Shown piece by piece: positions 11,834 to 42,473 of a DNA stretch of 64,000 nucleotides. How positions within the stretch are numbered: position 1 is the stretch's first letter; every line of letters starts with the position of its first letter. Below the pieces are notes generated by a model. That model was not told where the DNA came from. It was given only the letters and a program-made list of their open reading frames with translations, and did no database searches. Origin of the DNA: Cymbomonas tetramitiformis (Eukaryota; Chlorophyta; Pyramimonadophyceae; Pyramimonadales; Pyramimonadaceae); assembly GCA_001247695.2 (NCBI GenBank), contig LGRX02024720.1, positions 1 to 64,000 of the forward strand, written 5' to 3'. Made by a program: the position numbers and the translations under genes.

Positions 11834-12291
11834 ATGCTTGCTGGCAGCGATGACAGTGGGGACAGGGATGATGCCGATGCCATTGATGACCATGGTGGCA
11901 TTGCCAATGGCGAGGTATCAACCGGACTGACATCATCAAGGGAGCTCACTGACCTCATCAAGGAAGATGACGATGAAGATGACGATATACTGACGATGAA
12001 GTGCCCTTCGATTGTTCGATATCAAGTCTGCAATCTCGTCTTCATCAGGGAATTTCAAAGGTACAAGAACGAAAGGCATACATATTGCAACCTATGGAAA
12101 GGGAATCTCCGCTCATCATAAGATCCTGTAAGCCCATCGAAATAGACAACCCGGAAGATTATCTGTTGGGTGACCCCTCAGCAGCTGAGTTGGCCGGTCA
12201 GGATTATCACTCTGGAAAGATGAAAAGAGGAACACATAGGACTTCGGTGACGAAGCTCACGAAGATGCTGACAATGTGGCCGCTCCTCTGA
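11834..12291 (+). pseudogene. Possible degraded acidic protein fragment, two overlapping frames
   Basis: One frame reads an acidic stretch (SDDSGDRDDADA, later KEDDDEDDDILT) and a second frame continues with EIDNPEDYLLGDPSAAELAG. Runs of aspartate followed by this kind of segment are common at the N-termini of transposon proteins. The change of frame near 12000-12120 would make this a remnant, or two exons. No family can be named. Confidence 0.3.
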
Positions 12292-12916
12292 GGAAAAGGG
12301 CACCAAGAGATTAAGCACGCTAAGAATGACCATCAAAGGACAAGTCGTATAGATTACTCCTGCGACATATGTGAATCTAGGCTGCATGCATTTGATGCAA
12401 TGACGAGGTGGCAGCATCTGCTCGATGAAAGAACTGGCGTTTTGCTGACGATGAGATGAAATCTAGAGCAGGACAGTTGCTTATAAGACCTGAGTATATA
12501 TGCATGCAAATTCAGGTTGAACCGTCTTACGGCGTAAGATCATATGTAAAAACGCGACGGATATCAGTCAAAATTATAAATAATTATAGCGTTAATATTG
12601 GGATTGCTTATATGCAGCCGCCCCGGAACGTGCAGGTGCAGAATTAGCATACCAATTTGTGTCGAAAGGGCATTCTGAAGGTTTGAGGTAGTCGAGGGCT
12701 TAGGTCCTCACACTCGTACTTTGGGGATTTGCGTGAATCCAATTTCTCGCAAAGATTTGGCATGCTACTTCTTTACATCATCTCCAGAGATGTACGAATG
12801 CAGCTGTTCCCATCGGTTTCTCGCAAAGCCCCAAGTAACGTTTGTTCAACAGCCCATATGGACGTACTGCCTGCGTTGGTTTGCGTATTTAGTAACTTAC
12901 ACGCGCCATCCCGGAT

Positions 12917-13148
12917 GTGCCGCGGGGCTCGAAGCGTGTGAACCAAATGACCAAATGAAACACAGATGCACACATACAACGTTGAAAATATGTTTCAGTC
13001 GTTGTTATTACTATTTCTTAGCGTTCCCTTCGGCAGGATACCGAAGGGAATGCCGTTTTGTGGATCCCGGTTCCCGCTTCCGCCACGCGAAGTGGGGACT
13101 CCGGGGTCTGCTTCCAGTCACCGAATCTGTGGTGGGATGCTTCCTAGC
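12917..13148. repeat. Dispersed repeat, copy 1 (inverted copy at 33508-33757)
   Basis: The segment shares tgaaacacagatgcacacat, ttgaaaatatgtttcag, a cccttcggcaggataccgaaggg palindrome, cgcttccgccacgcgaag and cttccagtcaccgaat with 33508-33757 in reverse orientation. Similarity is high but imperfect. No coding content is evident; an old non-autonomous element is likely. Confidence 0.75.
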
Positions 13149-14149
13149 GTTCAGAATACCATATTCAACATTATTCGCTTCTAATAGATCGCGAAGACTT
13201 GTCAATCTCTTCATTAATCTACCCTGCGCACTAGGTTTTCAAAGTGTAAAGCGCTTAAGAAGCGCGAACGGAAGCGGACAGATTCCAGAAAGATACCGGC
13301 GTGATTTCGATAACGGCTTAGATGTCTTTCCTATCTAATCCAACGGCTGTTTAGTATTCGTAAGCAATGCAAAATATAATTCGCATATGAGGAATCAAAC
13401 AGGAACCCATCGCGCTTTTCATTACACTCTTGATACGCCGTACGTCTGCTATTCAAGTCTGGGATAACGTTTCTAAGGATATGCTGTCCTGATTATCAGT
13501 CAATAGGGCTCTATATATACTGGGTGATCTTTACTGCAATAAATATATTGCTGTAAATTACCATTGTGTACCTCGAGCATGGCTAATATTGGCCCGGTTT
13601 AATGGGCGCATTTCCTTATTTAACAAATGGCATCGTTCAAAGAGTGGCGCACTTAGCGAGGCGCATGTATTGTTACGACTCTAGGATGATCACCCTCATT
13701 TCCAGCCCCATCCTGAGGGCACAATTAAAAGGAGCACTAACTTATTCTGTTATTTCATGGACATGTACCGAAGCGTCCTGAATTACTCCAGTTTCAATCA
13801 AATTCACGAGTCAACCCTCCCCTCACCCTTCACCTCCTTACGATATGTTTGACATACATTATTATTACAGAGGTAATACTTTTAGAATTCGGCCATCATT
13901 TGGCTACTTGAATTTTCACACAAAAATTTATGTAGAAAGTGCACTCCCAAATCTCCAAACATACAAAGTATATCAGGATAGTTATGCACGGTACTGCTAC
14001 GGAATTGCAACTCTGGAGTTCTCAAAATGGAGCAATATTCATTCCCGCGTTAAATTCAAGCATTGCACACAGGTCGTAGCCGTGGGAACCACCGTGATTT
14101 CTAAACAACTGGACTGCCGAGGCAAACTGCCAAAAAATTGGACTGAATT
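13149..14149. other. No supported gene; AT-rich
   Basis: Only short frames without motifs are present. The 108-residue + strand frame at 13845-14171 has no recognisable domain. I treat this as the 3' flank of the large - strand gene. Confidence 0.4.
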
Positions 14150-17100
14150 TCAGATCATAACGCGCGAATAAATTGAACTCCGGGAAGCGCCTCTTGGTGA
14201 AGATATCGATCTAGGAGAGCCTCTTGGTGATGCCATTGATCCAGGTCGAGGGGTGTATCCTTTGGGATGAGCATATTGTCCTCTCTTCACCTTGGCCTCA
14301 ACATCACGCAGAACGAACTGCAGATAGCTTGAAAGCTCAAACTGTACATAACCAACCCGCATGTTTTCACTCTTGAGTCCATATGTATCAATCCGCCGCT
14401 TGGCACGGCCCACTTCGACTAAATGAGGTCACGACTATTTTGCGCATAATTGTGTACGACAACATCACTAAGCAAATGCTTCTGGCAGGCGTGGATGGTG
14501 TTCCGCTTGGAAGCGCCTCAGTAACGTGCACACCTTCGATTCCATCGCCTTTAGTATCGCAATTGCGAGCATTGGGTTTATCTCTCGCACCACGAGTGCA
14601 ATCTGCGTCAGACGTCCTCCAAACCTCATCCCAAATCAGGCATCATCCTGCCTGCAACCCGAGCCCTATCATCCTGTAGACAACGCGGCTTGCCACCACC
14701 AAAAGTCGCAGCGAAGGCAGCAAGGGCAGGGAGGTTACTTGTGCAGGGCGCACCTGTGATGCTTCCAGCTTCTGCATCAAATACACGCTGGTGTTTATGG
14801 ACTGCACCTGCATTAGTACAGCGACACACTGCACAACCCCAGTGCCGCCACGTGTCAAGCGCAACCCCGATGCCGCCACGTGTCAAGCGCAACCCCCCAT
14901 AGGGCCTCGATGACACAAGGGGCCCCTTGATGACACGGGAGCCCGACAGCATGCATTCCAGCCCTGCTCAAGGGCACACCCCACTTTGATGCAAGGCTTC
15001 AAAGTATAAGCTCAGATCCCTGTGAGCAGAACTGAGGAGGGGTACCGGCCGACCCCTGCGAAGATGTGAATAACTCCCTGAGGCGTGACAGAGGGTACGA
15101 TACAGCATCACCTCGAAGGAATTGACTTCCAACTTGGACACCTCGCTCTGGAGCGGGCCGCACATTCACGGAGGCGGCGAGCGGTGCGCGTGGGGCGAGG
15201 GAATCAGGGCAGACGAGCGCAGGGTGTGGGTGGCAGGAGGAGCGTGAGAGGGTCCGTCACCCTTGGCTCTAGAGCTCCCAGCATTTCGCCCACATCCTGC
15301 CATATCCCAGGAGGCCCTCTCACTGCCGGGCTTCAGGATACACGGCCACGGGGCTCCTAGGGTCGTCTGTCGGTCACAGAGATGCCAAAAAAATGCCAAA
15401 AAGATGCCGGCGGTGCAGCAGCAAGCAGCCAAGTCTGGACCGCTGCGCTGCTCGGAGCAGGGGAGAAGGCGGGCGGCCGGGCACGGAGGCTGCCCGTTGC
15501 TGGTTACATGGCTGTACAAACATCGCACAACAACTGCCTGAAGGGGGGCGGACGGGGGACGCGCTGGTGCAGGCAACGGGGCACATAGCGGGCGCAGGGG
15601 GGTGGGAGAGAGAAGGGAGAAGGGAGAAGGCCGGGAGGGAAGCGGGCACACGGCGAGGAGCAGACCTCGTCTCTCAGAAGCTGCAAGATCTGCGCCACGT
15701 TGTTCGAGTGCATCCTCGACAATACCGACCCTCTCACCTGCGCCCAGGGCAGCAGACTCCACGCTGGGTCGAAGGACGCCCAGACGCCACCGTGGGCTGG
15801 CACGCGGGTGGCACGGTGAGATGCGCCAGCTCTCAGAGGCCGCGACTTCCCTTCGGGGAATGCGGGGGGCGCTTCGCGGTTGCAGGGGGGTGGAGAGAGG
15901 GGGCACCTGGATTGGGAGCGACTGCAGCTGTCCCAGGCACGTTCGGGGAGGCATTTGCTCCAGCCCTGTGGACCGTCAGCGCGTCATCCCCTCCCCGGCT
16001 CAGTCCCTGCTCTAACCAGCAGCGTTAACCAGCGGCGTGTGCTTGAGCCTCCCACCTTCCACTATGTCCTCTCGCCTTGCGCTGCCCCTTGTGAACGCGG
16101 CTTGGCGCAGCAGCACGGCGACCCTAGAGCCCTGGAGTGGCGCATGCCTCACAGAGCCGCGCGTCCCACCAATGGGGACTCTGTTTTAACCCTTCAGACT
16201 TTCCGGCCAGAAATTTTGTGAGTTCAAAATCCCAGATCCCTGTCCAGCGCACGCTGCGCTCCGCGCGGCCCAGCTCGCAGTTCGCAGCCTGAGGCATGCT
16301 TGCATTCGGGACGCGGTGCCTTTCAAAAGTGAGTTTGAGAATCACACGCGCACAGCATGTCAAGGCGCGAGCAGCTCGCAAAGGAGCGTCCCCTCGCCTC
16401 GCCTGAAACACCACGCCTGCAACTCCGACACTCGCCTCGACGGTGATCCGCACTGGTCGATGAGTGCAAGAGAGCGCGCGATGCACGCGGCGAGACCCGC
16501 GAGACGGAGATGGGGCCCTAATTCGTCGCAGACCAAGACGAGCAGGAAAGGGGGGGGGGCGGAAGGGGGTAGGGCCGAGCGAAGAACTGCAGAGCTACGC
16601 ACATTTGATGAATGCGTAGAGGTTCTTGACCGCTGCCGCCGCGCTTGGCGGCTGGATGTGGCGCAGCAGAACAATCACCTGCTGTGGGGTGATCGCTGCC
16701 CGCCCATGCCCGCCACGCATCGCCTCAGAGCCCTCTCCCAGCTACCCCTCCCAAATTCACCGGTGTGAGGCTGCAGTCTCTCGCCAGCAACCACATGGAC
16801 GGCTAAATCATGGCTTCCTCGTTCGGGCGGTCAATCCCCCCTGTTTAGTGCGCGGTCACATATCCCTGACTGCTACGTTCCAGGTAAGTCGATGGCGGTC
16901 GGGCTTCTGCGGGGACGACGTGGGGGGGCGGCTCACCTTCCATCACCCGGGAGGCTACTGTGACGGACGCCCTTCCCAGCTCATCCGCGCCCTTCGTCGG
17001 ATTGGACTCACACAATTTGCACAATTTAGCTTCTTCTGCGGTGTGACCCCGGCATCCCCCCTCCCCAGATGTCATCCACGACTGCATCACTGCAACTTGA

Positions 17101-20100
17101 ATCCGCCAAGACTCCAGCGCCGCCGACGCGCTCCAGCAAAACGCAGGGAGAAAACTGTAGGGGTGGCCGTTCAGAGGGCTACATGTTCGTCGCTGGTGGA
17201 GAGGAAAAGTCGACGGCTAGCAAGCAGGTTGACCATCTACAGCAATCAGCAGGCTGGACAGCAGTGGTGACAGGGACCACTCCGCCTTGCTCCATTCGGC
17301 ACTCGTATCGGCTGTGCACGGGCCCAGCCCCTGGCAGAAAGGGGTGCGGGCAGGCGGGCACCTTTCTCGCTTTGTAGGCGTCTCTCGTCGCCGCATTCTA
17401 GGGTTGGGGGGGATGGCGAGGTTGGCCGTGGCCGTGATTTCGGGCTTTGCATTTGGGAAGCGCCGAACACCGCCTTCACGGAGTACCGGCGATCCTTCCC
17501 CGGGAGCACCGTCTCCCCCGCCGCCGGGAGGTGCTCCGCTGCGAATGGTCCCCGGTCACCACATCACCAATCACGCGCAAGCCGCGAGCTCGGATGGATG
17601 GCCTGGATTGGGAGGGCGAACCCTAACGGCCGCAGGGATGTCTGCCTTCTTCCCAATTCGCTTGGTTCCTCCGGAGGCAGTGGCAGGGCAAGGGTGGAAG
17701 AGCACAGAGGGACAGGGATATAAGTACGCAATCAATGCACGGTGTAAGGCGAGGTGGCGCACGGGGCGCATGGGTAGCTGGGTACCTTTGGGAGGGACCA
17801 AGCGGCCTGTTAGTTCCGTCAGCACCAAACGCCCACCAAACCCCGCGCGTCATTCACGGACGCGTGACAGAGAGCCGCGCAGTCCAACAGAGTTTAGCGG
17901 GCGCACCAAGAGGTGGATGCGCATGCGGATGCCTGGAGGATGCTGCCAGGAAGTGGGCGTGTGGGCAGCGGACAATGGAGGGAAATAATGGCGGCACTGC
18001 GGCACTGGCGGTCTGCATCGAAAGGGCCGTAGGGGACGCCTCCCAAGTGCCTCAAAACAGGGATCCAACGCCACGAGGTGGGCGATAATTTGGGGCCAAA
18101 GTGGGCACAGGGTGATACGCCACGCACCAAGGTTCTGGGACGTGCCGAAGCCGACAGGTCGACCTATTGACACAGGCCCCGCCAGCTGGTGAACCCAGCG
18201 AACATTGCGAAGGCGGACTCGGCACAACCGCGCCGCACAGTCTCAGTTCGCTCCCCTATTAGGAGAAGCAATTCATGGATCGGGGAACGCACGTGGGGAA
18301 GGGCGGCGCTTGGGAGGGTCACCTGGCGATACAGCGCTCCTGGCCGGAGATTTACTAGGCGATGATCTGACGGGTGACCTGCTATGTGATGTCCGCGTGT
18401 GCGACGACGTGGAGGGTGAGATGTCGCCTGGAGGAGGGGGAAAGTGCGCGGAAGCCGGGAGAGACATTAGGCACCACAGCGTGCGAACCTGAGAAATAGC
18501 ACAATGATGCAGGTGCAGGGAACGCCGTTCGCGCGCAGCAGAGAATGACTCACCTTTACGACCATGAACCGGGCTCAGCCGCTCTGCACACCCCCAAGGC
18601 ACCCGCTCCTTCGGTACAACCAGGTCCTGACCCAGACAACCACGGGTCGGATGGCAGCGCGCGTTGCCGTGCATCCCGAGGCCTGACTACGACCCCTGTG
18701 GCACTGCGAAGCATGGCCTGCGACTGCCCCTCTACAATCTGAGCCTCCACCCGCCATTAGGGTGTCTGCGGCTACTCTCTCCCAGTGCTTCCCCCCATCT
18801 GCCCGCGGATCTTGCGCAGCAGCTCAGTGGGCCCGCAGGATGCCCGGGCAGCATGCATTAAAGCTCAGAGGCGCCCGGCACACTGCGCTCTCCGGCTCTC
18901 AAGGGCGGGTCCGCCACACTGCGCTCGCCGGCTCTCAAGGGCGGGTCCAGCACCCAATACACAACCCAGATTGCACTGCAGCCGATTGGTCCATCACCCG
19001 ACTGTCACCTTCCCGAACAGCTGTAAGTGGGCAGAGGTGACAGCACTGACTACCAGGCTCCGAGGATTCCAAAGTGCTGCACTACCCACCACCCCCGCAC
19101 CCATCCTACCCGCAGGCCGCCCAGCATCGTCCTGAGAGGACCGAACGTTCCAGTTTCCACACTCAAGCACCGGCACACGCTGAGGGCCATTCATCCGGAC
19201 TCTCCGGAGCTCCGCGTGCCCTGCACCGCGCCTCCCGGGGGAGTTCGCCACGCAAGGGCCGGGGCTTGCGCGTACTCTTCGACCCGCCCCCATTCCTGCC
19301 AGGGTCCTGTTGCGAGCTCTCGCCGAGCATCCTGACCGCCCGAGAGCCGCCTCCTACACCATCCTGCTGACGCACGACTTCCGGAGCATCCTGGAGTGGC
19401 TGCAAAGCGTCTGTAGCGCGCGCCTACTGTTGCGCTGCTGCTGGCGACCGAGATCCCGGCTAGCAGGCGGCCAGGGAGGGATCGAGGAGGCGAGCTCACC
19501 GGTCTGCGCGGAGCTGCCGAAGCCCTTGGGGTGCGGTTTCTGCTTCCCGGCGACTTCCTCTGGCGATAGCGGGCACTTGGGCTTGTTCAGCCTCTCCCAC
19601 ACAGTGCCCACCCACCCCTGGGTGAACCTGAACTTGCTTCTCTCCTTCTTGCCGGCTTGCGCGCTGCTCGTTTCCCTGCTGCCTCTATCACTGCTGCTGC
19701 CCGTCTCCGCGCTCCACCTCCCCGGGTCATGCTTCCCCGCCTTAACAACAGGCGGGGTGCGCGCCCTCGAGCCCGCCTCCGGCTCCGCCTGCTTCGCGTT
19801 CCTGGAATCCTTGCTCATCGCCAGCCGCTCCCACACCGGAGGTCGATTAGTCGTCTTCCCGATCAGTATTTTGCTTTTTTGTTTGAGCTTGTTCAGCTGT
19901 GTCCGAGTGTTTGATGCGTTGTAGGTTGCCCTTGGCGGTGGTGGCCCGGTGTCTTCCACTGCGATGCCCCAGTCGCCCCCCCCTCCGGTGTCATGTCCCC
20001 CTCCCCACCCCATGAGGTCCGAGGATCCCAGGCAGCAGTCCCAGCCCCTTGTGGCCACCAGGCAAATATTCACAAGAGCCGAGGAGAGGCGCGTCATGCC

Positions 20101-20915
20101 TCCGGAGGGTTGACAGGGATCTCGGGGGGCACCCTGAAATCTGATCATTGACCCCGGCCTCCCACTCCCCTGCGGACCTGCGTCACACGTCAGCACAAGA
20201 CCATCCCCCCCCCTTCTGCGCTCAGCACAAACCCTCGGCCCTGTCATTGTAGATGCGCCATGCTATACAGGCGCAGCTATATTGCGCCTGTATAGCATAA
20301 GTCAGAAGCTGCGCCATGCAGCACAGCGCCCCACAGGGCGGCCACACGAGTGAGAACCCCACAAAAAGCACGGACAAGAGGCGATACTCCCCCGTCTCCA
20401 ACCCTCGCATGGCGGCCACGTGGGACGTCATCAGTTGCTCCCTCGGCAGGCCAGGAGCTCCGCTGCCTCCCCGGCGCCACGTGGAAGCCATGCACGGTTG
20501 GCAACACCCGAGGTCGCCGTCGCGTCACCTTTGAAGCGGGACAGCAAGGAGCCGTCCACGTCATCCTCCTCGTCCTCGTCCTCAGGCATCATGTCCAGGT
20601 CCTGCATACCATGCCGCTCCATCCCGGGGGCCGCGCGCGCGTCCTCCTCCTCGCTCAGATCCTCCTCGCTTCTCTCGTCGCCGCTCTGATCGTACGCCAG
20701 CTCCACCACGGACTCCTCCTCGGTGTCGTAGAATGACGGCCGCTCCGGCATGCTGGAGATGCTGCGCGCCGACTCGAGGCCGCTGCGCGCCGACTCGAGC
20801 GGACTGCGCAGCCCCTCCAGTGGGCTCGCGTCCCAGTCCACCCCCGAGCCCAGCGCCACGATGGGCACAAGCGGCATGGGCCTTCGTATCGAGGGACTCC
20901 TCAGCTCTGGCACCA
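14150..20915 (-). CDS. C-terminal part of large repeat protein: linkers with W-E-R-L motifs plus further helical-repeat exons
   Basis: These - strand segments probably continue the gene at 21284-32763. Listed high to low: about 20529-20915, acidic/Ser-rich (ending DGSLLSRFK before gtgacg); about 19500-19920, Lys-rich with two W-E-R-L motifs (PPVWERLAMSKDS and GTVWERLNKPK); 18323-18427, Ser/Pro/Arg-rich (SPVRSSPSKSPARS); about 16603-16678, helical repeat (VIVLLRHIQPPSAAAAVKNL); 15666-15737, exactly 72 nt, phase 0 (LSRMHSNNVAQILQLL); 14534-14602, 69 nt, phase 0 (INPMLAIAILKAMESK before gtgtgc); and about 14150-14413, ending in an SPRGSPRS-type tail. The helical exons share the pattern of those at 21-26 kb. 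Exon joins in the linkers are unresolved, so a separate neighbouring gene is possible. Function is unknown; cytoplasmic scaffold is my inference. Confidence 0.55.
20261..20297. repeat. Perfect 15-bp inverted repeat with 7-base loop
   Basis: tgctatacaggcgca at 20261-20275 pairs exactly with tgcgcctgtatagca at 20283-20297. It is isolated in a linker/intron of the large - strand gene and has no downstream T-run, so there is no reason to call it a terminator. Confidence 0.85.
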
Positions 20916-21090
20916 CCTGCATTCGGTTACCACCCCCGAAGCTCTCTGGCACCACCTGCATTCGGTTTCCACCCCCTGAAGCTGGCACACGGGGAAGGCT
21001 CTGACACCACCTGCAATCGGCCACCACCCCTGAAGCTTGCACACGGGGAAGGCTCTGGCACCACCTGCATTCGGTTACCACCCCTCGTAC
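20907..21090. repeat. About 50-bp tandem repeat, 4-5 degenerate copies
   Basis: Units contain ctctggcaccacctgcattc, ggttaccacccctgaagct and gcacacggggaagg with partial deletions. The array is intronic between the acidic exon and the helical-repeat exon at 21284-21352. Confidence 0.8.
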
Positions 21091-21283
21091 GGGACACAGG
21101 GAAGGGGGCGCAAACGTGCGGCGCACGGATTCTACAAAGCACTGCATCGCACTCCGGACACAGCTGAGGACTACGGGCATAGGCATTGTTGGCCAAATGG
21201 GAGAGGGGACCCACGTCGCCGCTGTCACCGTCGGCCGCCACGTCACCGCCGTCAAAGGTATCCTCCTCCTTCTCCTCCCCCAC

Positions 21284-24200
21284 CAGGACGGGTATCTCTT
21301 GCATTAACGCAGTGATGGTCGCCCGCTTCCGTATGCCCATGCGGCTCAGAACCTTGCTAGCCTGCGGTGCCCCGACAGAGACCGCCCTCTACTCAGCCCT
21401 GCCCGAGCGCAGCCTCCCCCCACCGAGCGGAGGGCCCCCCTACACTCCCATCAGAGACGATCCCTGCAACCTCCCCAGGGGTGCGGCTCCGCGACGCGCA
21501 CACCAGGGCATTCCTTGGACCGGCACACGGCCGCGCCATCCACTGCGTGCAGGAACTGCGTTCCATGGGCTCTGCGCCCACAGGGCTGCGTAACACCGAA
21601 ATCTTTGAATACTGACCGCTGAGAGTGCTTTTGAGTTCGGCTCAAGGCTGGCTGCGAGTGCCCTCTGCGCTATGCCGGGTGCGGCGCCGAATGGAAGGTC
21701 CTGCGCCGCTTTTGCGCCCCACGTTTGGCGCTGCCCCTTCAGCCTCCCGCGAAGCAGAGAGGCCCCCCTCTCAGAGGCTTCACACCACCAAATCGACTGC
21801 GTGAGAGGCCCGTGGGTGGCATGCGCATAGCAGCGTCGTGGATGAGCAGCAGCACCTCAAAATGCACATACACCTCGAGCGGGTCTCGGCAATGCTTAGG
21901 AAAACATCTCGGCAATGCTTAGGGAAAAGACCAGATTCCCAGCAGTACCATGTGCGGTTGACGACGCAGCGTAGCTTATCTTCCCTTCTGAGCGGAAGGA
22001 CGAACAAGTGTGGAGGACCAGAGCTTTGTGGAAACCGCACCTTATCGTGGTGCAGGTTGTCACAGATCTCCGCCGCCTGTTGAGATTGAAGACCCGCCAC
22101 CATCTCCACGACCTGTGCAAGGATTGTCACAGCCGGCCCGCGCCGCACCCATGGCGATCTGCAATGCTGGTCTAAGGTAAGGTTGTCTCGAAAACAGGCC
22201 GCCCCACGAGCGCCTCGCCCACCTGCGCGCGGAGGGCGTTCCTGTCCTGGCGCGAGATCCCTTGTTGCGCCCGAGGGTGCTTAGAGCACACACCATCGCG
22301 TAACACCCCTGCAGTGAGCGAGGCAATGACCCCCTCTGTGCAGGCCACACCCTGCAGTGAGCGAGGCGATGACCCCCTCAGGCCACACCCTCCAATGAGC
22401 GGCGATGACCCCCTCTGTGCAGGCCACACCCTCCAATGAGCGGGCGATGACCCCCTCCCGTGCAGGCCACACCCTCCAATGAGGCGAGGCGATGACCCCC
22501 TCTGTGCAGGCCACACCCTCCAATGAGCGGCGATGACCCCCTCTGTGTGCAGGCCACACCCTCCAATGGCGGCGATGACCCCTCTGTGCAGGCCACACCT
22601 CCAATGAGCGGGCGATGACCCCCTCTGTGCAGGCCACACCCTCCACTGATGAGTTCCAATGAGTGCAGCGATGAGCCCCTCTGTGCAGGCCACACCCTCC
22701 ACTGAGCGAGGCGATGACCCCCTCTGTGCAGGCCACACCCTCCAATGAGTGCAGCGATGACCCCCTCTGTGCAGGCCACACCCTCCACTGAGCGGCGATG
22801 ACCCTCTGTGCAGGCCACACCCTCCAATGAGCGAGGCGATGACCCCCTCTGCAGGCCACACCTCCACTGAGCGAGGCGATGACCCCTCTGTGCAGGCCAC
22901 ACCTCCAATGAGTGCAGCGATGAGCCCCTCTGTGCAGGCCACACCCTCCACTGAGCGGGCGATGACCCCCTCCGTGCAGGCCACACCCTCCAATGAGCGA
23001 GGCGATGACCCCCTCCGTGCTCCAATGAGTGCAGCGATGAGCCCCTCTGTGCAGGCCACACCCGTAGCACAAGGCGTGCTCGTGCATGGTGCAGAGCAAA
23101 GCACGCGACCAGTTTTGCATCCTCCGCTGCATGAGCGTATCTGAGATGCTGAAGCCAGCTGCCACCCAGCACGCCGCCGCTCTTGCCCAAGTGACAAGTG
23201 CGGGCAGGGGGGCCCATGCCCGGCGCGGGGGGCACAGTAACTCGCACACGTGCGCAGTGTGAAGGGGGGCATACGCGCTCATCCTCGGTACAGGCCAGGA
23301 AGGCAGCCGACTTTTCTACGTCCATGTATCCGATGATCTCGATCGCCTGCGTCACAACCTCGCATGAGTCGCGCAGCGCTGATAGGAGCGTTGCTGGTGT
23401 CGTGCCCCAGCAGGCATCCATCAACCACAGCGCCACCAAGGCTGCTTGCCCCGCCGCCCGCATAAGCACGCACAGGCAGGTGACACAGCACGGCGGCGAT
23501 ACCACAATCGCCAGGACCGAATGAATGTCGAAAAAGCGTCATGGACAGAGCTGTGGCTCCTGGCAGTCCCCAGTCCAGGTCCACTTTGGTACTGTGGCTG
23601 GAAGCGACATGTGTCGTACTGTCCCGGCGGCCACAGCGGTCACGGCTTGTGCTCCAAGACCACTAAAATTCTAACTCGTTCATTCATATCAAAACCATGG
23701 CAGTGCATCCCCCACATCACCCAAAGTGAGGCACAACCCCCCCCGACATGCCCTGCGCCACGTGCCGAGATGCGAGCTCCGTGGACGAGCCCGGCGCTTC
23801 GCATTGAGCCACAGTTCGTGTGGTCCAAAGTGCATGGCGTACGGCGCGGTTCGCCTTTTTGCAGCTTCCTGTCGTGACATCTCTGGCAGGCGGCATGCGG
23901 GCGGCACGTGGGTGGCAGACGCAGCTGCGGGGGGGCGCGGGTCACCGTGCTCGCGGGAAAGATGGCCAGCACTTCCGCCGCTTTATCCATCTCCAACTCA
24001 GCAATCACATCGGACGCCTGATGAGCGCCCCACCCGCCATGCCAACGCTGCATTCCTCATCACCGATCGATCCACGTCACTCGACTGTCGACGTTCTTGC
24101 GGAGGCAGCACCTCTCATGGCAACGCATTCTGGCGGGAACGGCTAGTGTCTCGGCGCAACCTCTCCTGCCCAAGCCTTGCCATCACGCCTCGTCCCTCCG

Positions 24201-26298
24201 GCGCAGGCGCCCTACCATCATTCATTCTCCCCCCCCACCTCCCCGCCGCCCAGAGGGACGGGAGGTCACCGACCAGACGATGCTTTGATGACATCCCTCC
24301 AGCGGCCTCTGCGCGGACTCGACCGCCATCGCCACCCTCGGGCGCGAGCAGTCGGGGCCGCTTACCATTTGGGAGCTCATGTGTGTCATGATGGCGGTCG
24401 CATTCAGGCTGGACCTCCGCCCCAGGATCCGGGACACGACGCCTGTCCCGCAGAGCAGCGCGCGGCATCAGACAGGAAAACACGGTGTGCGTCGACTGTG
24501 TCGCCCGCACCTTGCCGCTCCGAATCTATACCTCCTCCATCCTGATTCATGGAATCCAATATGAATGTTGGGAGTGCCCACCCGCGCCCCGGGATCACAC
24601 CCCACCAATCCTTCTCCAAAGAGCTCCCCAGAAGCCCTGTTGACGCAATGCTGCTGGAAAAGAGACCGCAGGGCGGGCCAGCAGGAACGCCCGATAGAGA
24701 AGGAAAAGGAGCCCGAGCGAGTCAGCGCACGCCATCACCGTGGACATAGAATCGATGCGTCGGCATGCGTTCAGCCGGGGTCCCCATCAGACACGAATGG
24801 ATTCACCGGTGCGCTTCATGCGGTACCTTATCCGTCCGATGAAACGAGGCATGTTTCTGATTGGATCCGCTGGGAAGCCGGGAGGAGGGCCATCGCCCAC
24901 CTGTGCGCATCTGCTTCATCACCTGCGCCTCCTCCTGCACGAGGGAATCCTCACAACGACCAAACAGCGCCCCCACAGCCCGTCAGCTCACACCGTGCGC
25001 CACGTCGGAAAGGCCAGGCGCAGCGTCACGCTCCTCCTGCACCTGCCGCATTCACCGCTGCTGCCAAACGTGGCATGGCGGCCGTCTACGCTCGTCACTT
25101 AACACGCCGAGTCGCCCAACCTCGGTTTGTGAGACTGCCAATTCTGAACCAATGGCATCACGGTATTCTAACGCCGCCGGATTCAGGGACACTCCACGTC
25201 CCCAGAATCTCCTTCCTCCAGGCGGCGGGGAATCTTCAATGTCTCCCATCTTAAAAGCCCCTATCACTACGGTCAATCAGGATCTCCGGAAAAAAAAACT
25301 GACTCCTCTCAGAATAAATATCTCCTCCCGCAGCCTCAAAAACACGAAATACGACCAAATAAGTTCTCTAACGCGATCTTTTAGAAAAGTGCATAGGCTC
25401 GGCCGCTCCATGATCCACGTCAGCCTTGCGCGGCGCCGTGCTCGGACACCGGATGACATCACTGCAGCGTGGGAGGCACTGTGCAGCAACGCGGAGGAGC
25501 TCCCCTCGAGACATGGGCAGGAGGGAAGTCTCAATGCCCGAGAGAACTATAAACATGTTCGCAGCCACTACGCTGCCTGAAGATGAGGACCGAAGCCCGG
25601 CGAAGATGCGCAAGTAGGATTCAGAGGTTACAGTTCCAACGAGCTCTGCTCCCGCGAGCCGCAGAGATGACGGAAGTAAGGCAGTTCAAACAGTGACGTG
25701 ATAGAACAAGAGATCCGATGTGTGGACCGCAGGTTAGGTTCCCCGTGACTGCTTAGAGGGAGAGATCTTGACATTAACCCTGGCGAATGAAAGCTGAGCG
25801 TGAAACATACTGAGAGCAGCGCAAAGCTAAAGTGGTGCAATCCCCCGCCCAAGAGCTGGGCAGAGAACAGATTTTCCCTCCCTCGCAAACATATGGATTA
25901 CGTCCTGAAGCTCTCCTGCATCCCGCTCACTCTTCCCCCGCCTGTCCGTGGTACCTTGAATCTTGGCATGTTCTCAAAGACCTCCACCACGCGGTCCGCA
26001 TCTAGTTTGTTCAGCAGCTGCGCTACCTGCACAGCCGGCCCTCCCCTCCCCATCCCCCCACTCAGCCCCTGCAGCAGCTGCAATGCCAATTGCCACGTGG
26101 ACAGGCACAGATGTCACCGCTCCGGGCCCAGCTCCTCTCGGCGTCTGGGGAGGGCCGCGCCTCTGACGTGGGCAGCTGCTCAATATACAACCCGGCTTCT
26201 TCACCCGTCATCTTGTTGATCATCTCAATTGTGTCGTTGGTCCCGGCTTCTTCACCCGTCATCTCGGTGATCATCTCCATTTTGTCGTCGGACACATT
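21284..26298 (-). CDS. Central part of large protein: exon-per-repeat MgtE_N/FliG-like helical array
   Basis: Seven - strand exons each encode one helical hairpin of pattern hxxhhxxhxxxxAxxhhxxhP. They are 26118-26298 (two repeats, each with MTGEEAG), 25955-26026 (LLNKLDADRVVEVFENMP), about 24366-24442 (ATAIMTHMSSQM), 23946-24017 (VIAELEMDKAAEVLAIF), 23275-23346 (EIIGYMDVEKSAAFLA), 22041-22112 (GLQSQQAAEICDNLHHDK) and 21284-21352 (MGIRKRATITALMQEI). Four are exactly 72 nt and one 69 nt; these five start after cag/aag, end before gt and are phase 0 at both ends. The spacing and A-x-x-h-h-x-x-h signature resemble the MgtE N-domain/FliG superhelix (family knowledge). No membrane segment or CBS motif was seen, so a Mg2+ channel is unlikely. 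Continuity with the C2 exons upstream and the linkers downstream is inferred. Confidence 0.7.
22306..23062. repeat. About 40-bp minisatellite, roughly 19 copies
   Basis: The unit gcaggccacaccctccaatg followed by agcgaggcgatgaccccctctgt is repeated with frequent 1-4 base indels and a variant insert agtgcagcgatgagcccc. It fills the intron between the helical exons 22041-22112 and 23275-23346. It generates false frames of several hundred residues on the - strand. Confidence 0.93.
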
Positions 26299-26701
26299 CT
26301 GAGGCCCCTCCCATGCCCCCCGTCCTGATATACGGCAGCCACGTGCGAGCTCGGAGATGGCCGCGTCCCGAGCACCCGGCGTATGAGACACGTTGAACCC
26401 GTCAATCAACCTAGCGGGGCGAGGGCGAGGGGAGTCGTGGTGGAGACCTTTGCGTTAACACTACAGGGTCCAGGGTTTCACGAGAAGCAAACAAAGCGGA
26501 CAAGGGAAGGCACCGAAGAGGGAGCGCACACGCCCGTGCCTCCCGCTGCCCTCTTCCCCTCTCGCCAGCAGGCCGCTCGTGCGCTCCACCAATTTACAAC
26601 TCTTGCACAGCATGTCCCTCAGAACAGCCCAGGTATAGAACCGGTCTTACAGCTACACCTCGTGTGCCCGTATGGCACGGAACTCTCGCCTGCCGCTGAT
26701 G

Positions 26702-26855
26702 TGCAGGGCCAGGGCACGAAACCGCAAGAGCAGGGGCTGCTGCAGCTTCAGAGGGCCAGGGCACGAAACCGCAAGAGCAGGGGCTGCTGCAGCTTCAGAG
26801 GGCCAGGGCACGAAACCGCAAGAGCAGGGGCTGCTGCAGCTTCAGAGGGGGGTCA
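26702..26855. repeat. About 46-bp tandem repeat, 3 copies
   Basis: The unit gggccagggcacgaaaccgc followed by aagagcaggggctgctgcagcttcaga occurs three times almost identically. It lies in a presumed intron between the C2 exons and the helical-repeat exons. Confidence 0.88.
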
Positions 26856-26859
26856 GGGG

Positions 26860-28003
26860 GGGTCTCACAGCGGCTGCCTCCGGGTGGCTGTCCTTCCACT
26901 CCACCTGCTCCAGCTCAACATCCGCTGGAATGGATACGTTCACAAACACCTCGCCAACAACTCTGCACCAATGCCCATCCGAACTCTATCAGCCCCACTT
27001 AACACATCGCATCGTGTGGCAACGCTCACATCAGCACCCTTATCCTCGCCCCGAATTCCGATCCGATGGTTACCGCCGCCACCAGACTGCAGAGGAAAGC
27101 CTGTTGGGGGAGGCATGTTCCTATGATGGGATCGCACACTCCAGCCGTCGTGACTTGATGGAAGGAAGGAAGGAGGCGAGAAAGGAACGTGCGCATGGAG
27201 ATCGGGTTTGCATTGGCTTGATGTTTGGCATTGGCTCTGCTTGCGTCTCATGCGGCGATGAGCATCATGCGTCACAGGAATATCGAAGGTGCCCTGCACA
27301 AGGTGTGGCACTGGAATGTGACATGCATTAATCGTAACCATCGGATCGCAAAACCTCAACTATTTCCACCGGTCTCTCGCCAGATCAATAGTTGTGGGCA
27401 ATCTCTATGCCGCAGCTTCTTAAAGTTTTTCCATCAACGACGCGTTCCCATGGTAGAAGGAGGACCTAAATGTGGAAGGTCAAAACTGGTTCCCTTCACC
27501 GGTCCAGGTGGTTTGCAAACGCACCCGCGATCATAAAAGCTGGTTTGAAGGCTGTAGCACTTTAGCTGAGACTCGGGTTACGCACGTTTCATGTGTTTGT
27601 TGCAGCAACAGCTGCACTGCCATCTACTGTGTCCTTGAAGCTGACACCCAAAAGTTTCAGGAGCGTTCACTTGTGACCCTCGGAAGCCCTTTGTGCAGCA
27701 ACGAGTGGAGAATCGACCGATGGATTGCGGTCCGCAGAATTCACAGCCGAATGGCATCGCTCGAATAACTGGTCGCGCCTCAAATAGTTCTGGCCGCAGT
27801 GAATGTCTCGATAAAAACAACCACCGAACAAGGACATTATCCTGTCCAGTATACTTTGCAGATGCCGGACCATGTCACACTGTGGTGAGATAACTACGGC
27901 GTGCCGCGAACCATACCGTGCGCACCAGTGTGCCAAGAGCACCGATGGCATTAAATCGGGCCAAGGGACGCACTCGTTTCTGTCTCCAATGACCTCGAGC
28001 CAC
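26860..28003. other. Presumed intronic sequence, no exon identified
   Basis: Between the last C2-region exon (28004-28044) and the first helical exons (26118-26298) I could not place coding segments with confidence. Linker exons may be present. No RNA gene or mobile element was seen. Confidence 0.35.
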
Positions 28004-31000
28004 CTGGACTGGTGATAGCTTACTCCTGATGAACGGTTCTTCACCTGAAGTCGATCAAAGCGCAGCACAGCAGCGTGTCAAGTCGCACCTCCCCGTCACC
28101 AGCAAACACAGCGCCATCGATACAATCTCACTCGACGAGCCGGTGGCGGGTAAAGGCTGCCCAGTGATTGGACACATAAAAGAACAGCTTGCACCTGTAT
28201 GACATCGGCCAGCTCCACCTCCGCGTGCCCCAGACAGGACATGTTCACCACCTGGCAAGTCCATGAGTGCAAGAAAGCTGTCAGGAGCCCTGGGGCAGGT
28301 TCTTTCAAACGGCTCTCGCAAGTGGCGCTCCGGGAGGGTGTGTCATGACCTCCGACATGACATCCGAGCCGAAGCAGGGGCTCTGCTCTGGCGGTATGTG
28401 TGCCCCTCCGCTTCTTGCACAGGAGAGGTATTACATCGCTCAAGAGCCTACAGGGCCCAGGGGGTGGCCTGGGAATACAGGGCACTCAGCGGGGAGGGAA
28501 ACTGACAAATGACGCACCCCGAGAATGACGGATTTTTCCTTGACTTCCAATTTGACCTTGCTCTGCCGCGGCACCGTCGTGGGGCAAGAAAATAGAAGAG
28601 TGTCTTCCCTGCACACCGGCGCACCCACAATGCGATCACTCCCAGGGCATCGCCGCGAGAGTGTGATGAGAAACGTCAGAGAAATCATCGCAACGAGGAG
28701 GCTATCAGAACAGAAGGAACACAAAATCATCGCAACGAGGAGGCTATCAGAACAGAAGGAACACAAAATCATCGCAACGAGGGAGGCTATGGGAACAGAA
28801 GGAACACAAAATCATCGCAACGAGGAGGCTATCAGAACAGAAGGAACACAAAATCATTCGCAACGAGGAGGCTATCAGAACAGAACAGAACACAATCATC
28901 GCAACGAGGGGAGGCTATCAGAACAGAAGGAACACAAAATCATCGCAACGAGGAGGCTATCAGAACAGAAGGAACACAAAATCGCAACGAGGAGGCTATC
29001 AGAACAGAAGGAACACAAAATCATCGCAACGAGGAGGCTATCAGAACAGAAGGAACACAAAATCATCGCAACGCGGAGGCTATCAGAACAGAAGGAACAC
29101 AAGGAGGACGGATGGACCAAGACCAAGAGGGCAAACGAGTCGGAAACGATTGTTGAGCATGGAGACTAGGAAGAGGTGAGCATGCCCCTCGTGCCTATCC
29201 TCGCCGCCGCATGCCTCTCGTGCCTCTCCTCGCTGTCACGTGCCTCTCCTCGCTGCCGCACGCCCCTCGTGCCCCTCAAGCCCCTCCTCGCTGCCGCCTA
29301 AATTAACCATTATCCTGCCGAACCTACTGTGCCAAAAGTTGTCCTATTGGCCCCAAAGATCTTGACACCTACCCTCCACCGGCATCTACACCTCCCCGGT
29401 AAACCCGTCAGCTCAGCTCTGCTGACAAGGATGGGGCTTCCGGCTGGGAATGACCACTGGCACAGGCCGTTGTCTGACATCCTGAAGAGGGTGGACTTGC
29501 GCTCCGAGCTGTACACTCCGCTGACACTCAGACTCAGCTCGTCGATGGTATCCATCTCACGGGCCTCCATCATGCTCAAGGTCATCTTGGGGCCCTGCAT
29601 AGCATGACCCGAGATCACCCCTTCCCTCAATCATGCTCAAGGTCATCTTGGGGCCCTGCACAGCATGACCCGAGATCACCCCTTCCCTCAATCATGCTCA
29701 AGGTCATCTTGGGGCCCTGCATAGCATGACCCGAGATCACCCCTTCCCTCAATCATGCTCAAGGTCATCTTGGGGCCCTGCACAGCATGACCCGAGATCA
29801 CCCCTTCCCTCAATCACACCCCTAGACTCCTGCCCAGCTCCATAGGTCCTGTCCTCACACAAGCGCCGGGCGGAGCATGCAGCCGGGAAGTTGACGGCAC
29901 CGGATGAATTAGGAGGAACACCGGATATGGAGTATCACGGGAAGGGGGGCGCAGGGAGTACCAGATATGCGAGCCACAGGGCCACCGCTCACCGACATAG
30001 TGAGTATCAGCAGCCTAAGCAAGCCAGACTCGTACGAGAGGCCAATTCTGTAGGTAGTAAAGAGAAAGCCTGACATTCCCACTGACCCCAACGTGCTATG
30101 CAGACGAGAGGCGGGGGCCACACCTCAGGGATGTAATAGAGGGAAATCCGCACATTCCCACTGACCCCGACGTGGCCATTCCCCTTCGCATCTCCGGAGG
30201 TGAGGGCATATGCTTCATCATCCGCCAGCGGCTGAACGTCGTTGCCCGATCGGAAGCATCGATTCATCCCAACCTGCAAGTCCCACCCGGTCAGGCCCCC
30301 TCTCACCACAGGGTGCTTCGCCATCACCCTGCTGAGGGCCAGCACACGGCAGCGATTGGAGGCCCGACTGCCTGTCCTACGTAATACCTCCAAGGCAAGA
30401 GACAGGGTAGCAAGGGATACTGCAACGATGGGGAGCCGCAGGCACGGGCGAGGCAGGTCGAAGTGGGGCCGGAGGGAAAGCTTGCTGCACACAAACCCCA
30501 AACTCCACCGAGCCCCGGCGTGTGAAACAAAGAGACATAGCACCCCGTAAGGGGGGGGAAGCACTGTCTGAAACAAAGCGACCAAGCACCCCGTGGGAGG
30601 GGCGTCTGAAACAAAGAGACCGAGCACCACGTGGGGGGGAGGGGTGGCACTGTCTGAAACAAAGAGACCGAGCACCACGTGGGGGGGCCGCCCCGAGACC
30701 TGGAGTCCTCACAACAGGGCGCCTCCCTTTCTCAAGGTAGTGGACAAGACAAGGGAAAACGTGCAACAGAATAAAGAACAAACAAAACACGACGGCCCCA
30801 GCTCCGGCGACAGCTCTGTCTGCGGCTTTGAATTTTGCGAACACAGGTTTGTATGGTCACCTCGAACTGGCCGAGAAAAACGCCGGCCATCACGGAGTTC
30901 TTGTCATACACTTCCACGTGCAGGTATGCGGATGAGTCGTACACCTGCCGCGCGAGCCACAGTGACGAACAATACCGTCCACCACGTCAACAACACGAAG

Positions 31001-32763
31001 GGTTATGAGCCGTTGTTTGGGGGCATCCCAGGGTCAATAGGTCGACCAGCCTCGCTCACTTGGCAGCCCTGCTCGACACTGGGAAGTGGCTGACACGCCA
31101 CGGCGACAGCACGCTATGGAAAACCTTGAGGACAAGCCTAAGTCGTCTCCCCAAGGCCGCTCAGCTCCATGATGTGAGGGTTCGAAGTGGCCCGACGACT
31201 CCAAGTGGCCCGGTGCTATCACGACATCTCGAGAGAATAGCCTCCGGCATATGGTTCGTACGCAAGCTGCGCTGGCAGCAGTCAAAATTCCCTGTAAAAG
31301 TCAGGGAAAGAAGCGGGCACAGTCACAGGGATCGGTACCGGAAGCGTGAAGGTCTCGTTCCATTCAGGGTCCAGCGTGCGGTGCTTCACGCTGGAAGTCC
31401 GCTCTTCCAGGAGGTCCTGCACGAAGTACGTACTGAGTGAAAAGCAACGCTGGAAATGGCTTGGAGCAATTTTTCGGGCACATATACAACTGGTGCCAGT
31501 GCGAAGATATAATGATAGGTGCCGCTGACCTTTTGCGCTTAATACAAGAAGCACGGCAAAATTCGACGCCGCTGTCAAGGTACGCTTCCCACGGGAAGCA
31601 AAACAAACATTGGCGCACGCGACGAGTCCCACAGCCGACTGACAAGACTTCCCTACGGATGGTGTTGGATGTCGTTCGGTGAGTATGAACACGATATCGG
31701 GCGGACGCGTGACGATGGTTAATCACTGGGGTGTACACACTGTAAGAGTCCTACTAACAGCCGAGAACTGGACTGGAAACCAGTGATGATTGATACAGCG
31801 CGTGGTGCCCTATGAGAGACAGCCATGATGTTGTTCAATCGTCTTGCGTATGCAGGCTATTGACCACCATTCAGAATTCATAAGCCCCCGAAGCGATTGG
31901 AGCCCCACCCGAAAGCCGCTTAGGTTGCTGCGAGCGAAAGCGTGTTGAGAGCTAACGGAAAGCCCTACAGAATCAAGCGGCTGAGCAGCCGAAAGAGCGT
32001 GAGCCAAATCAAGGAAATTTTGGCCCACGTTCCTTGGGGAGCGTGCAGGGACACCTGAGGAGCGCTGCTTTCTTGTCTAGAGCCCTCCCGATATTTGACG
32101 CGTAGCTGCATGACACGAACACAACTGACACTTCTGAAAAAACTTCGTGGAAACAATAAAGAAGTGACCAAGAAGCGAGAGGTCCATAGGCTTGGAAGAG
32201 TGTATTAGTGCTTAGTAATCTTAATGTGCAGTTTGAGTGGCGTTCGCTGCAAAACCCTGAGCTCAAGAAAACGTTTCGATGGCAAGACTCAACGCGGTCT
32301 AGAATGCATGAAACGTGTTGTTGAGCTGAACTTTGTTCAGCTGACGAACATCTTCATTCTCAAAACAAGCTACAACTGTTTTCAAGGGCACAGGCGAACA
32401 TTATCGAGCATATAAGTTGGGTCGCAAGACAGTGCTGCCCCTGAACATTTCCAGCATACTGACTGGCGCGAGTTCCACACTTCGAATTCCGCAAGGATCG
32501 AGGCGTAGCTCAGAGCCACTTGGGGCAACGATTTCACTCCGGAACATCCTGAGTGAGGCTGCGTTGGTAACCCCCATTTGCACAGGCATGTATAGGCGCC
32601 GCACCTTTACATACGGATCTGAGAAGCCGTTGGAGTCGGCTGCGGCCAAACCACTGGCGCGATGCAAGGTAACCGTGAGTTCCCCCAGTTTATTCCTTGA
32701 CAATGCTGGTTGTTCCTGGTGTCTGAAGGCATTTGTAAACGGGATAGAGAGGTTCGAAAACAT
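28004..32763 (-). CDS. N-terminal C2-domain part of the large protein
   Basis: A Ca2+/phospholipid-binding type C2 domain read across - strand exons, every internal junction in phase 0. They are about 32605-32763 (GELTVTLHRASGL, then DSNGFSDPYVK), 31339-31416 (VKHRTLDPEWNETFTLP), 30861-30944 (AYLHVEVYDKNSVM, FLGQFE) and 30124-30231 (GNVRISLYYIPE). Aspartates at the expected loop positions (DSNGFSDPY, DPEW, VYDKN) suggest Ca2+ binding. Further exons are about 29517-29594 (GPKMTLSMMEAREMD; 3' border uncertain), 28518-28562 (KVKLEVKEKSVILG), 28195-28251 (CLGHAEVELADVIQ) and 28004-28044 (VKNRSSGVSYHQSR). The last three look like a second C2 fold (LG-x-A-E-V-x-L-x-D-V). The ATG at 32763 is a candidate start, or the first exon begins after an acceptor at 32696. 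Role: probable membrane or Ca2+-responsive anchoring (inference). Confidence 0.8.
28686..29105. repeat. 43-bp minisatellite, about 10 copies
   Basis: The unit aatcatcgcaacgaggaggc followed by tatcagaacagaaggaacacaa is repeated about ten times with few differences, mostly small indels. It lies in the intron between the exons at 29517-29594 and 28518-28562. Confidence 0.92.
29567..29815. repeat. 61-bp minisatellite duplicating a splice acceptor and exon start, about 4-5 copies
   Basis: The unit tcatgctcaaggtcatcttg followed by gggccctgcatagcatgacccgagatcaccccttccctcaa is repeated nearly perfectly. Read on the - strand it contains gctatgcag|ggccccaagatgacc, the acceptor and first codons of the exon ending at 29594. 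The lowest copy overlaps that exon, so the array replicates a working-looking 3' splice site upstream of the real one. Confidence 0.88.
30535..30690. repeat. About 40-bp tandem repeat, 4 copies
   Basis: Units contain tgtctgaaacaaagagaccg, agcaccacgtgggggg and G-runs of variable length. Intronic between the C2 exons 30861-30944 and 30124-30231. Confidence 0.85.
31417..32604. other. Intron of the C2 gene
   Basis: This is the stretch between the exons 32605-32763 and 31339-31416, which join in phase 0 to give a continuous C2 domain (DPYVK then DLLEERTSS). Nothing else was recognised inside. Confidence 0.6.
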
Positions 32764-35139: not shown

Positions 35140-35211
35140 AGTTGGCACCGGGCCAGGATTTTTCAAATTTTGATTAAAAATTTGGGTGCATTTTTGGCCT
35201 AAAAAAATTGA

Positions 35212-35525
35212 GGAAACAGAAACTGTACCGCTAGACCAGAAGCCCGAAAAAGGTGAGCCAGGCCGGGATCGAGCCCGTGACCTCTCGCATACCGGACGAG
35301 CGCTCTGCCATTGAGCTACTCTGGCTTTTGATGGCGATCCTGGTGCGGTACAGAGTACTGAGTCCCCACGGTGCCACGTAGGCGGCGAAGAGTGAAACAC
35401 GAAGGATACAACTTTTCCCCCAATCTGCCGTTGCGGTGCGCTCTCTGTCGGGGCATCGCGCGGCTATGGGCGGCGCGACTGTTGGGGGCGCGCGGCTATG
35501 GGCGGCACGATTGTATCCTTCATGA
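35212..35525 (-). repeat. tRNA-related 314-bp repeat, copy 1
   Basis: Nearly identical to 35625-35938 (offset 413). Both copies contain, on the - strand, a tRNA-like segment at 35255-35326 with the D-arm tagctcaatggcagagc, an anticodon-like stem and the B-box-like ggctcgatcccg. A second A-box-like tggtctagcgg lies further on. The T-loop is one base short and position 33 is not T, so a functional tRNA is doubtful. A tRNA-derived SINE or tRNA pseudogene cluster fits better. Confidence 0.6.
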
Positions 35526-35624
35526 CACAACCTCACTCTGAAGTGTCTACGTGGCACAACCACAACCAGCTGCCGGCGTCACACCTGCGCAGTGGAAGCG
35601 TGGTAAGAGCCCATAACCTCATGG

Positions 35625-35938
35625 GGAAACAGAAACTGTACCGCTAGACCAGAAGCCCGAAAAAGGTGAGCCAGGCCGGGATCGAGCCCGTGACCTCTCG
35701 CATACCGGACGAGCGCTCTGCCGTTGAGCTACTCTGGCTTTTGATGGCGATCCTGGTGCGGTACAGAGTACTGAGTCCCCACGGTGCCACGTAGGCGGCG
35801 AAGAGTGAAACACGAAGGATACAACTTTTCCCCCAATCTGCCGTTGCGGTGCGCTCTCTGTCGGGGCATCGCGCGGCTATGGGCGGCGCGACTGTTGGGG
35901 GCGCGCGGCTATGGGCGGCACGATTGTATCCTTCATGA
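35625..35938 (-). repeat. tRNA-related 314-bp repeat, copy 2
   Basis: Direct duplicate of 35212-35525, with the tRNA-like core at 35668-35739; I noticed only one or two substitutions, including one in the D-arm (gttgagct for attgagct). A 99-bp spacer separates the copies. Similar AT-rich flanks (aaatttgggtgc) lie before copy 1 and after copy 2, suggesting the pair sits inside a larger duplication. Confidence 0.6.
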
Positions 35939-36233
35939 AAAATTTCAAAATTTGATCAAAATTTGGGTGCGTTCTTCAAAATAAGTCAAAATTTGATTAG
36001 AAGATGTAAAAAAATAGAATAAAAATATGGGCGGGATTGGTGAAAAATCTGGGGGGATATCGAATATGTCTCCGCGATCGCGATGGCTGCTGTCATTCCC
36101 ATACTTTACACGTCGACGTGAGACGTGACACAAACGGATACCGCATTACCGCCGCAATTCAAGCTCTGATCTCAAGTATCTTCAAGGCAGTCAAATTGTG
36201 AAAGTGAGGCCATCAGAGTTCTCAGCATTCGGA

Positions 36234-42253: not shown

Positions 42254-42468
42254 TGCTAGATATACAGGGCCGATATATATCTATTTGTCGTTATACCCCA
42301 ATATAGGGTTTCGATATCAGAACGGTCGGATTGATAAGATAAAAGGGATAAACATATACCTGACTTTAAGTTCAGGGATTAGGTTTCGGCCTACGAGTGA
42401 CGGTCACCCAGACTACTCTAGGATGAGGCAGGTGACATATTTCGGGTGTCACTGTGCCAAATCCAGCA
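42254..42468 (-). repeat. Long terminal repeat (5' LTR for - strand coding)
   Basis: A 215-bp copy with TG..CA ends, followed on the right by the target duplication accgc (42469-42473). Confidence 0.9.
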
Positions 42469-42473
42469 ACCGC

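Follow-up and report, generated by a model that had tools for sequence, protein, structure and literature searches.

Superhelices of short helices form the N domain of the MgtE channel, and the sections consulted of three reports present a superhelix of the MgtE_N or armadillo (ARM)-like kind as the structural, protein-binding part of FliG and of the E-ring proteins FlgY and FlbB (PMC11870540, PMC13023049, PMC11514114). In those sections FlgY, a protein with an MgtE_N-type domain, forms a ring in bacterial motors (PMC11870540, PMC13023049), and a recent review of alpha-solenoids, which distinguishes eight subfolds, places FliG under armadillo repeats (PMC11514114); MgtE is nowhere mentioned in that review. 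Here we analyse CYMTET_37123, a gene of the green alga Cymbomonas tetramitiformis on the minus strand of contig LGRX02024720.1 (assembly GCA_001247695.2), within the first 64,000 nucleotides (nt) of the contig's forward strand, hereafter the window. It encodes a multidomain protein consisting of a C2 domain (C2A), a probable second C2 domain (C2B), an MgtE_N-type solenoid and, after a disordered linker, a further helical block, and most likely acting as a membrane-associated scaffold. Plant CSI1/POM2, which combines ARM repeats of ~42 residues with C2, offers a functional parallel, that of an alpha-solenoid scaffold with C2; it differs in the length and kind of its repeats and in carrying C2 at the opposite end.

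The coding region (12207..32763, minus strand) is an exact spliced match to the 1184-residue GenBank protein CYMTET_37123 (P0001): 35 exons, running from 32763 down to 12207, give a translation identical to it. The introns comprise 33 of the GT-AG type and one of the GC-AG type, each junction having a single solution no more than 9 nt from the matched ends. The GC-AG intron runs from 26160 to 26027, between exons 11 and 12, and, as the gene finder presumably permits such introns only with read support, it may hint at transcript evidence. Exon counts are those of P0001 only; a chain previously spliced by hand around the exons first reported missed exons and differed at the C-terminus; its Pfam matches were C2 at E 4.7e-21 and MgtE_N at E 3.8e-18. 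P0001 was also recovered by a protein search of 5.8 billion sequences, where it is named a hypothetical protein with C2 and MgtE_N as precomputed Pfam domains. The gene is single-copy in the genome (851.7 Mb in 25,745 contigs searched), weaker matches elsewhere belonging to other repeat genes. According to the part of the genome report consulted, annotation was performed with BRAKER2 using the C. tetramitiformis transcriptome reads of Burns et al. 2015 and proteins from other prasinophytes as evidence (PMC10675990). CYMTET_37123 is therefore an already annotated gene of uncharacterised function, whose domains are known and whose domain combination seems undescribed.

Exons 1-5 (30124..32763) encode C2A, at residues 27-129, and its tail. 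Pfam assigns these residues to C2 (PF00168) with 80.3 bits against a cut-off of 22 (E 1.4e-22), and the loop-1 stretch DSNGFSDPYVK is as in the C2 domains of synaptotagmin and protein kinase C (PKC). In an alignment with synaptotagmin-3, D43, D49 and D110 are kept, whereas N112 and V118 stand at the other two acidic loop-3 positions. C2A thus lacks the full acidic set of a Ca2+-binding C2 domain, two of the five positions in loops 1 and 3, which we take to be the Ca2+ ligands of synaptotagmin, being changed; with these two substitutions, regulation by Ca2+ may be weakened or absent. The protein shares the C2A fold with synaptotagmin and PKC, and differs from them both in these positions and in having a single clear C2 domain. 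Exons 6-10 (26869..29594) probably encode a degenerate second C2 domain at residues 175-325, as suggested by homology and by introns shared with a paralogue, CYMTET_24166; this region has no Pfam match of its own and falls short of the cut-off. Where intron 5 ends, 4.1 tandem copies of a 61-nt unit (29564-29816) repeat the exon 6 acceptor and first codons, so that GPKMTLSM follows CAG at three further places, giving three possible decoy acceptors beside the real one. Intron 6-7 contains a minisatellite of ten 42-nt copies (28682-29102).

Downstream of the C2 head, the preliminary description had read the sequence as MgtE_N/FliG-like helical hairpins building a superhelix. Profile and structure agree with the MgtE_N part of that reading: P0001 scores 96.1 bits for PF03448 (cut-off 25.9), in four stretches (E 2.1e-27), and structure prediction gives an MgtE_N-type solenoid that is confident at residues 341-527 and aligns with MgtE cytosolic domains (N-domain structures 2yvy, 5x9h and 8gpv were compared). 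The predicted solenoid has ~15-16 short helices, with 12 residues per helix and 24 per hairpin, and has both repeat profile and predicted fold, a superhelix of short helices, in common with the N domain of the MgtE channel. An initial fold of P0001 alone, with a mean predicted local distance difference test score (pLDDT) of 40.3, was excluded from fold searches. The 50 Foldseek matches listed of 1201 were all C2 proteins, and MgtE emerged on a second look. Against PDB sequences, the repeat block alone retrieved nothing at E 10, and an uninterrupted array from the same genome retrieved MgtE (2oux, E 0.0021) and FliG (3hjl, E 0.018). Membership of the FliG family did not hold, as P0001 scores 24.4 bits for FliG_M against a cut-off of 25 and Pfam lists neither FliG_N nor FliG_C; a shorter hand-spliced piece reaches 34.4 bits for FliG_M, above that cut-off. 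The bacterial motor in which FliG and FlgY/FlbB operate is absent in the host alga.

The union of C2 with MgtE_N, which the preliminary description considered new, is supported by profiles in CYMTET_37123 and recurs in CYMTET_24166, a partial protein of 1189 residues (P0007) found by protein search with the joined array as query. Its N-terminus corresponds to the residue with which exon 4 opens in the window gene, from which it proceeds through the C2 tail and a second C2 (18.8 bits, E 0.002, below the cut-off of 22) to MgtE_N repeats (153.4 bits, 8 stretches). The gene lies at the start of its contig (C9856:154-11971) and maps exactly in 19 exons by least-cost path, with two GC-AG introns. 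When the heads of the two proteins are aligned, five of six head introns of the window gene fall in the same column and phase, and the sixth is one column off in the same phase; since the head introns coincide, the two C2 heads share descent. CYMTET_24166 differs in its longer repeat part, in its repeat exon lengths and in its low-complexity C-terminus. With their common domain order and shared head introns, the two genes constitute a C2-C2-MgtE_N family.

MgtE_N arrays are widespread in this genome. PF03448 matches, all above cut-off, occupy at least 50 places on at least 19 contigs, a lower bound given that scoring covered 150 of 164 candidates, among which neither the window contig nor that of CYMTET_24166 appeared. 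With these two, at least 21 contigs carry such arrays, some of which may be alleles. Contig C25101 (L011:4588-6342) holds an uninterrupted frame of 585 residues made up mostly of MgtE_N units (7 stretches, 203.5 bits), and on C87 (L022:2943-4874) an open frame of 644 residues joins filamin repeats with MgtE_N and FliG_M matches. One and the same MgtE_N stretch occurs on C4324 (L010:7214-7654) and C5213 (L027:4881-5309) with different upstream flanks, representing alleles or a recent copy. Around the other arrays (20 pieces, searched with the C2 profile and the two C2 heads), only weak, unconvincing C2 matches were obtained, in flanks that are short and with several arrays reaching contig ends.

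Outside this genome, the array search returned P0008, which is unnamed, has a long array and lacks a transporter domain, together with three shorter proteins, likewise unnamed. The C2-MgtE_N order had no relative outside Cymbomonas among the 7992 candidates sharing the most words with the query, where five weaker matches have C2 without MgtE_N. The joined-array protein search gave five matches among 7993 candidates scored, and the repeat-only search returned P0001 alone among 2008; as these protein searches require shared 5-residue words, an absence of relatives is weak evidence. Searches of open-licence PMC papers yielded no described protein uniting C2 with an MgtE_N-like superhelix, in line with the preliminary description, and no paper on such eukaryotic MgtE_N proteins. 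The word MgtE is likewise absent from the main text of two Cymbomonas genome papers.

The proposal of a membrane-associated scaffold draws on the sequence, the exon model compared with the annotation, domain identity by profile, the predicted fold and the paralogue; from these we infer location, lipid binding and scaffold role. C2A would dock the protein on acidic lipid, with a Ca2+ dependence that is possibly weakened; alternatively, a hydrophobic C-terminal tail would anchor it, provided that the last annotated exon is correct. By analogy with the superhelices of FliG and FlgY in bacterial motors, a face of the solenoid could bind a protein partner. More broadly, and tentatively, Cymbomonas and perhaps its relatives may use the MgtE_N/FliG-type superhelix much as ARM, HEAT and TPR repeats are used elsewhere, as a eukaryotic solenoid for protein binding in general, joined to C2 and filamin across arrays on ~20 contigs, with the borders of its 12-residue units as preferred intron positions and with CYMTET_37123 and CYMTET_24166 founding a family of C2-anchored scaffolds. 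If this is true, MgtE_N arrays with C2 and filamin would be a further, very compact type of solenoid (24 residues per hairpin) outside bacteria.

In the repeat part, seven stretches had been reported as phase-0 exons of 69 or 72 nt, each coding for one hairpin. Their lengths, the AG before, the GT after and the open phase-0 frame are correct in all seven, and six are annotated exons: exons 12 (25955..26026), 15 (23946..24017), 16 (23275..23346), 17 (22041..22112) and 30 (15666..15737), of 72 nt, and exon 33 (14534..14602), of 69 nt. The seventh, 21284-21352, lies inside exon 18 (21215..21361, 147 nt), which encodes the final hairpin of the first block and an acidic tail. Each of the six encodes one hairpin, that of exon 12 being a 24-residue MgtE_N hairpin and that of exon 30 standing one residue out of register. 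The list of seven omits four repeat exons, namely exon 13 (24901..24934, 34 nt, ~1 helix unit), exon 14 (24366..24442, 77 nt, ~2 helix units), exon 31 (15261..15296, 36 nt, one 12-residue helix unit) and exon 32 (14754..14828, 75 nt); three further "less tidy" exons had been mentioned without coordinates. The remaining repeat exons are exon 11 (26161..26298, 138 nt), which holds the first repeat units and precedes the GC-AG intron, exons 28 and 29 (15907..16695; 93 and 59 nt), where the second helical block begins, and exon 34 (14291..14341, 51 nt), whose unspliced read-through would stop at 14150. Intron 16-17 contains a minisatellite of 16.8 copies of 43 nt (22307-23020).

Counted over exons 11-18 and 28-34 (n=15), the repeat exons are thus less uniform than proposed, and the description "mostly 69-72 nt" is too strong, as it fits six of the 15. 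Lengths of 69-72 nt are nevertheless enriched relative to the other exons, of which one in 20 falls in this range (71 nt; one-sided Fisher 0.016), as are lengths of exactly 72 nt (5/15 against 0/20; one-sided Fisher 0.009), in small tests run on a pattern first noticed by the earlier reader. Six of the 15 are multiples of 36 nt. Introns of the repeat part are in phase 0 in 12 cases and in phase 1 in three. Borders were scored with a 12-residue unit matrix built from arrays of four other loci, with starts set by eye and the best of 12 offsets taken per border; by this measure, 12 of the 15 borders lie at most one residue from a unit start, where 3 in 12 would be expected. At three borders, one of them a miss, the best unit score is below zero and the register is loose. 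In the predicted structure, the borders of the first block (after residues 371, 395, 406, 432, 456, 480 and 504) fall 0-2 residues past the residue that opens a helix, and hence within the first helical turn. The exon pattern therefore exceeds chance and is a register of intron positions, not a regular run of equal exons.

The same register is seen in CYMTET_24166, where all 11 repeat introns are in phase 0 and eight of 11 borders lie near a unit start (against the same expectation of 3 in 12; one of the eight scores below zero). Its repeat exons measure 153, 72, 174, 123, 432, 81, 135, 111, 387, 123 and 915 nt, two of the 11 being multiples of 36. In both genes, then, repeat introns sit mainly where one helix unit meets the next.

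Two histories could have produced this register, and we favour, at about even chances of being right, the one in which introns were inserted repeatedly at the equivalent point of many units of an older, intron-poor repeat gene over an ancient exon duplication. The unit border consists of Lys or Gln followed by Ala or Val, often written AAG or CAG before GCG, and so resembles the exonic flank of a splice junction every 36 nt; repeated insertion is therefore a reasonable alternative to a duplication of exons long ago. By inspection, units of other arrays in this genome also often have AAG or CAG before GCG at their borders, an array without interruption exists (C25101), and CYMTET_24166 combines the same register with other exon lengths. 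In unannotated arrays exon lengths were assessed by inspection alone, since AAG or CAG at each unit border would bias the choice of splice site. Dating the introns calls for an outgroup, however, and intron loss from an ancestor with one exon per repeat would look alike.

The other history, advanced in the preliminary description, has single exons duplicated together with their introns, in an array still able to grow in this way; we consider it rather unlikely. It would account for five 72-nt exons and one 36-nt exon, all symmetric and in phase 0, and for the 12 of 15 borders that stand in register with the units. Neighbouring exons and introns are nonetheless unlike one another: compared without gaps, the five 72-nt exons have 0-6 of 24 residues in common and agree at 18-38 of 72 bases (the displaced register of exon 30 lowers its values), and among the introns of the repeat part a single weak 35-nt match was found, between the neighbouring introns 29-30 and 30-31. 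The sole tandem duplication detected by Tandem Repeats Finder in the repeat coding sequence, of 51 nt, sits inside exon 11 (26191-26288). The repeat exons of CYMTET_24166, few of which are multiples of 36, include three long ones (432, 387 and 915 nt), and in C25101 tandem repeats of 36 nt and 72 nt (69-82% matches) show that units have been copied within the one open frame. Growth within exons is what the present evidence indicates, and recent growth by whole exons finds no support, though exons may have been duplicated in the distant past. As the gene pair has its head introns in common and differs in its repeat exons, it provides a test case for exon duplication against repeated insertion at a splice-like point.

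Between the two helical blocks, exons 19-27 (16937..20916) encode an acidic and Ser/Pro-rich linker (residues 554-1006) with introns in phase 1, low pLDDT and no predicted secondary structure before residue 965; it carries Ser-Pro stretches and two copies of the motif VWERL (residues 739-743 and 817-821). The second helical block is weaker than the solenoid at residues 341-527, a hand-made spliced C-terminal piece matching MgtE_N with 22.7 bits (E 1.5e-4), under the cut-off of 25.9. Exon 35 of the annotation (12207..12287), which follows a 2003-nt intron, is uncertain. It encodes a strongly hydrophobic tail, with a mean hydropathy of 2.4 across residues 1163-1181, either a tail anchor or a wrong last exon, and the solubility of the protein hangs on it. 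The long low-complexity linker with its phase-1 introns, together with the acidic tail at the end of exon 18, might suggest that the gene model fuses two neighbouring genes, one encoding C2-C2-MgtE_N and finishing near exon 18, the other encoding the second block. We regard such a fusion as improbable, as the annotation gives a single protein, CYMTET_24166 likewise runs through one long repeat part and, in the part of the report consulted, BRAKER2 drew on transcriptome and protein evidence (PMC10675990).

Descent by decay or rewiring from an MgtE magnesium channel gene is mainly refuted and hardly credible: the MgtE_N domain is present and NCBIfam mgtE gives a partial match of 27.3 bits, but the equivalog cut-off is 232.75, a Pfam scan to E 0.1 found neither CBS nor the MgtE transmembrane domain, and the C2 head occurs in two genes. 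CYMTET_37123 belongs neither with the MgtE channels nor with FliG. It differs from the channel in lacking the CBS pair and the channel domain, in its ~15-16 helices, in its C2 head and in being an intron-bearing eukaryotic nuclear gene.

Several other features were observed elsewhere in the window. On the minus strand, two near-identical stretches at 35200-35960 each contain a sequence that is tRNA-like by eye, and ARAGORN reports no tRNA in the window. Open frames at 58534-59736 and 56760-57743 match the MYND finger (E 1.3e-8 and E 0.0035, respectively, the latter under the cut-off). A plus-strand frame of 694 residues (42422-44503) matches the hAT dimerisation region with 29.2 bits (cut-off 21.4) and has a Tudor-like match just under the cut-off, and a minus-strand frame of 673 residues (61221-63239) encodes a DDE_Tnp_1_7 transposase (E 4e-22).

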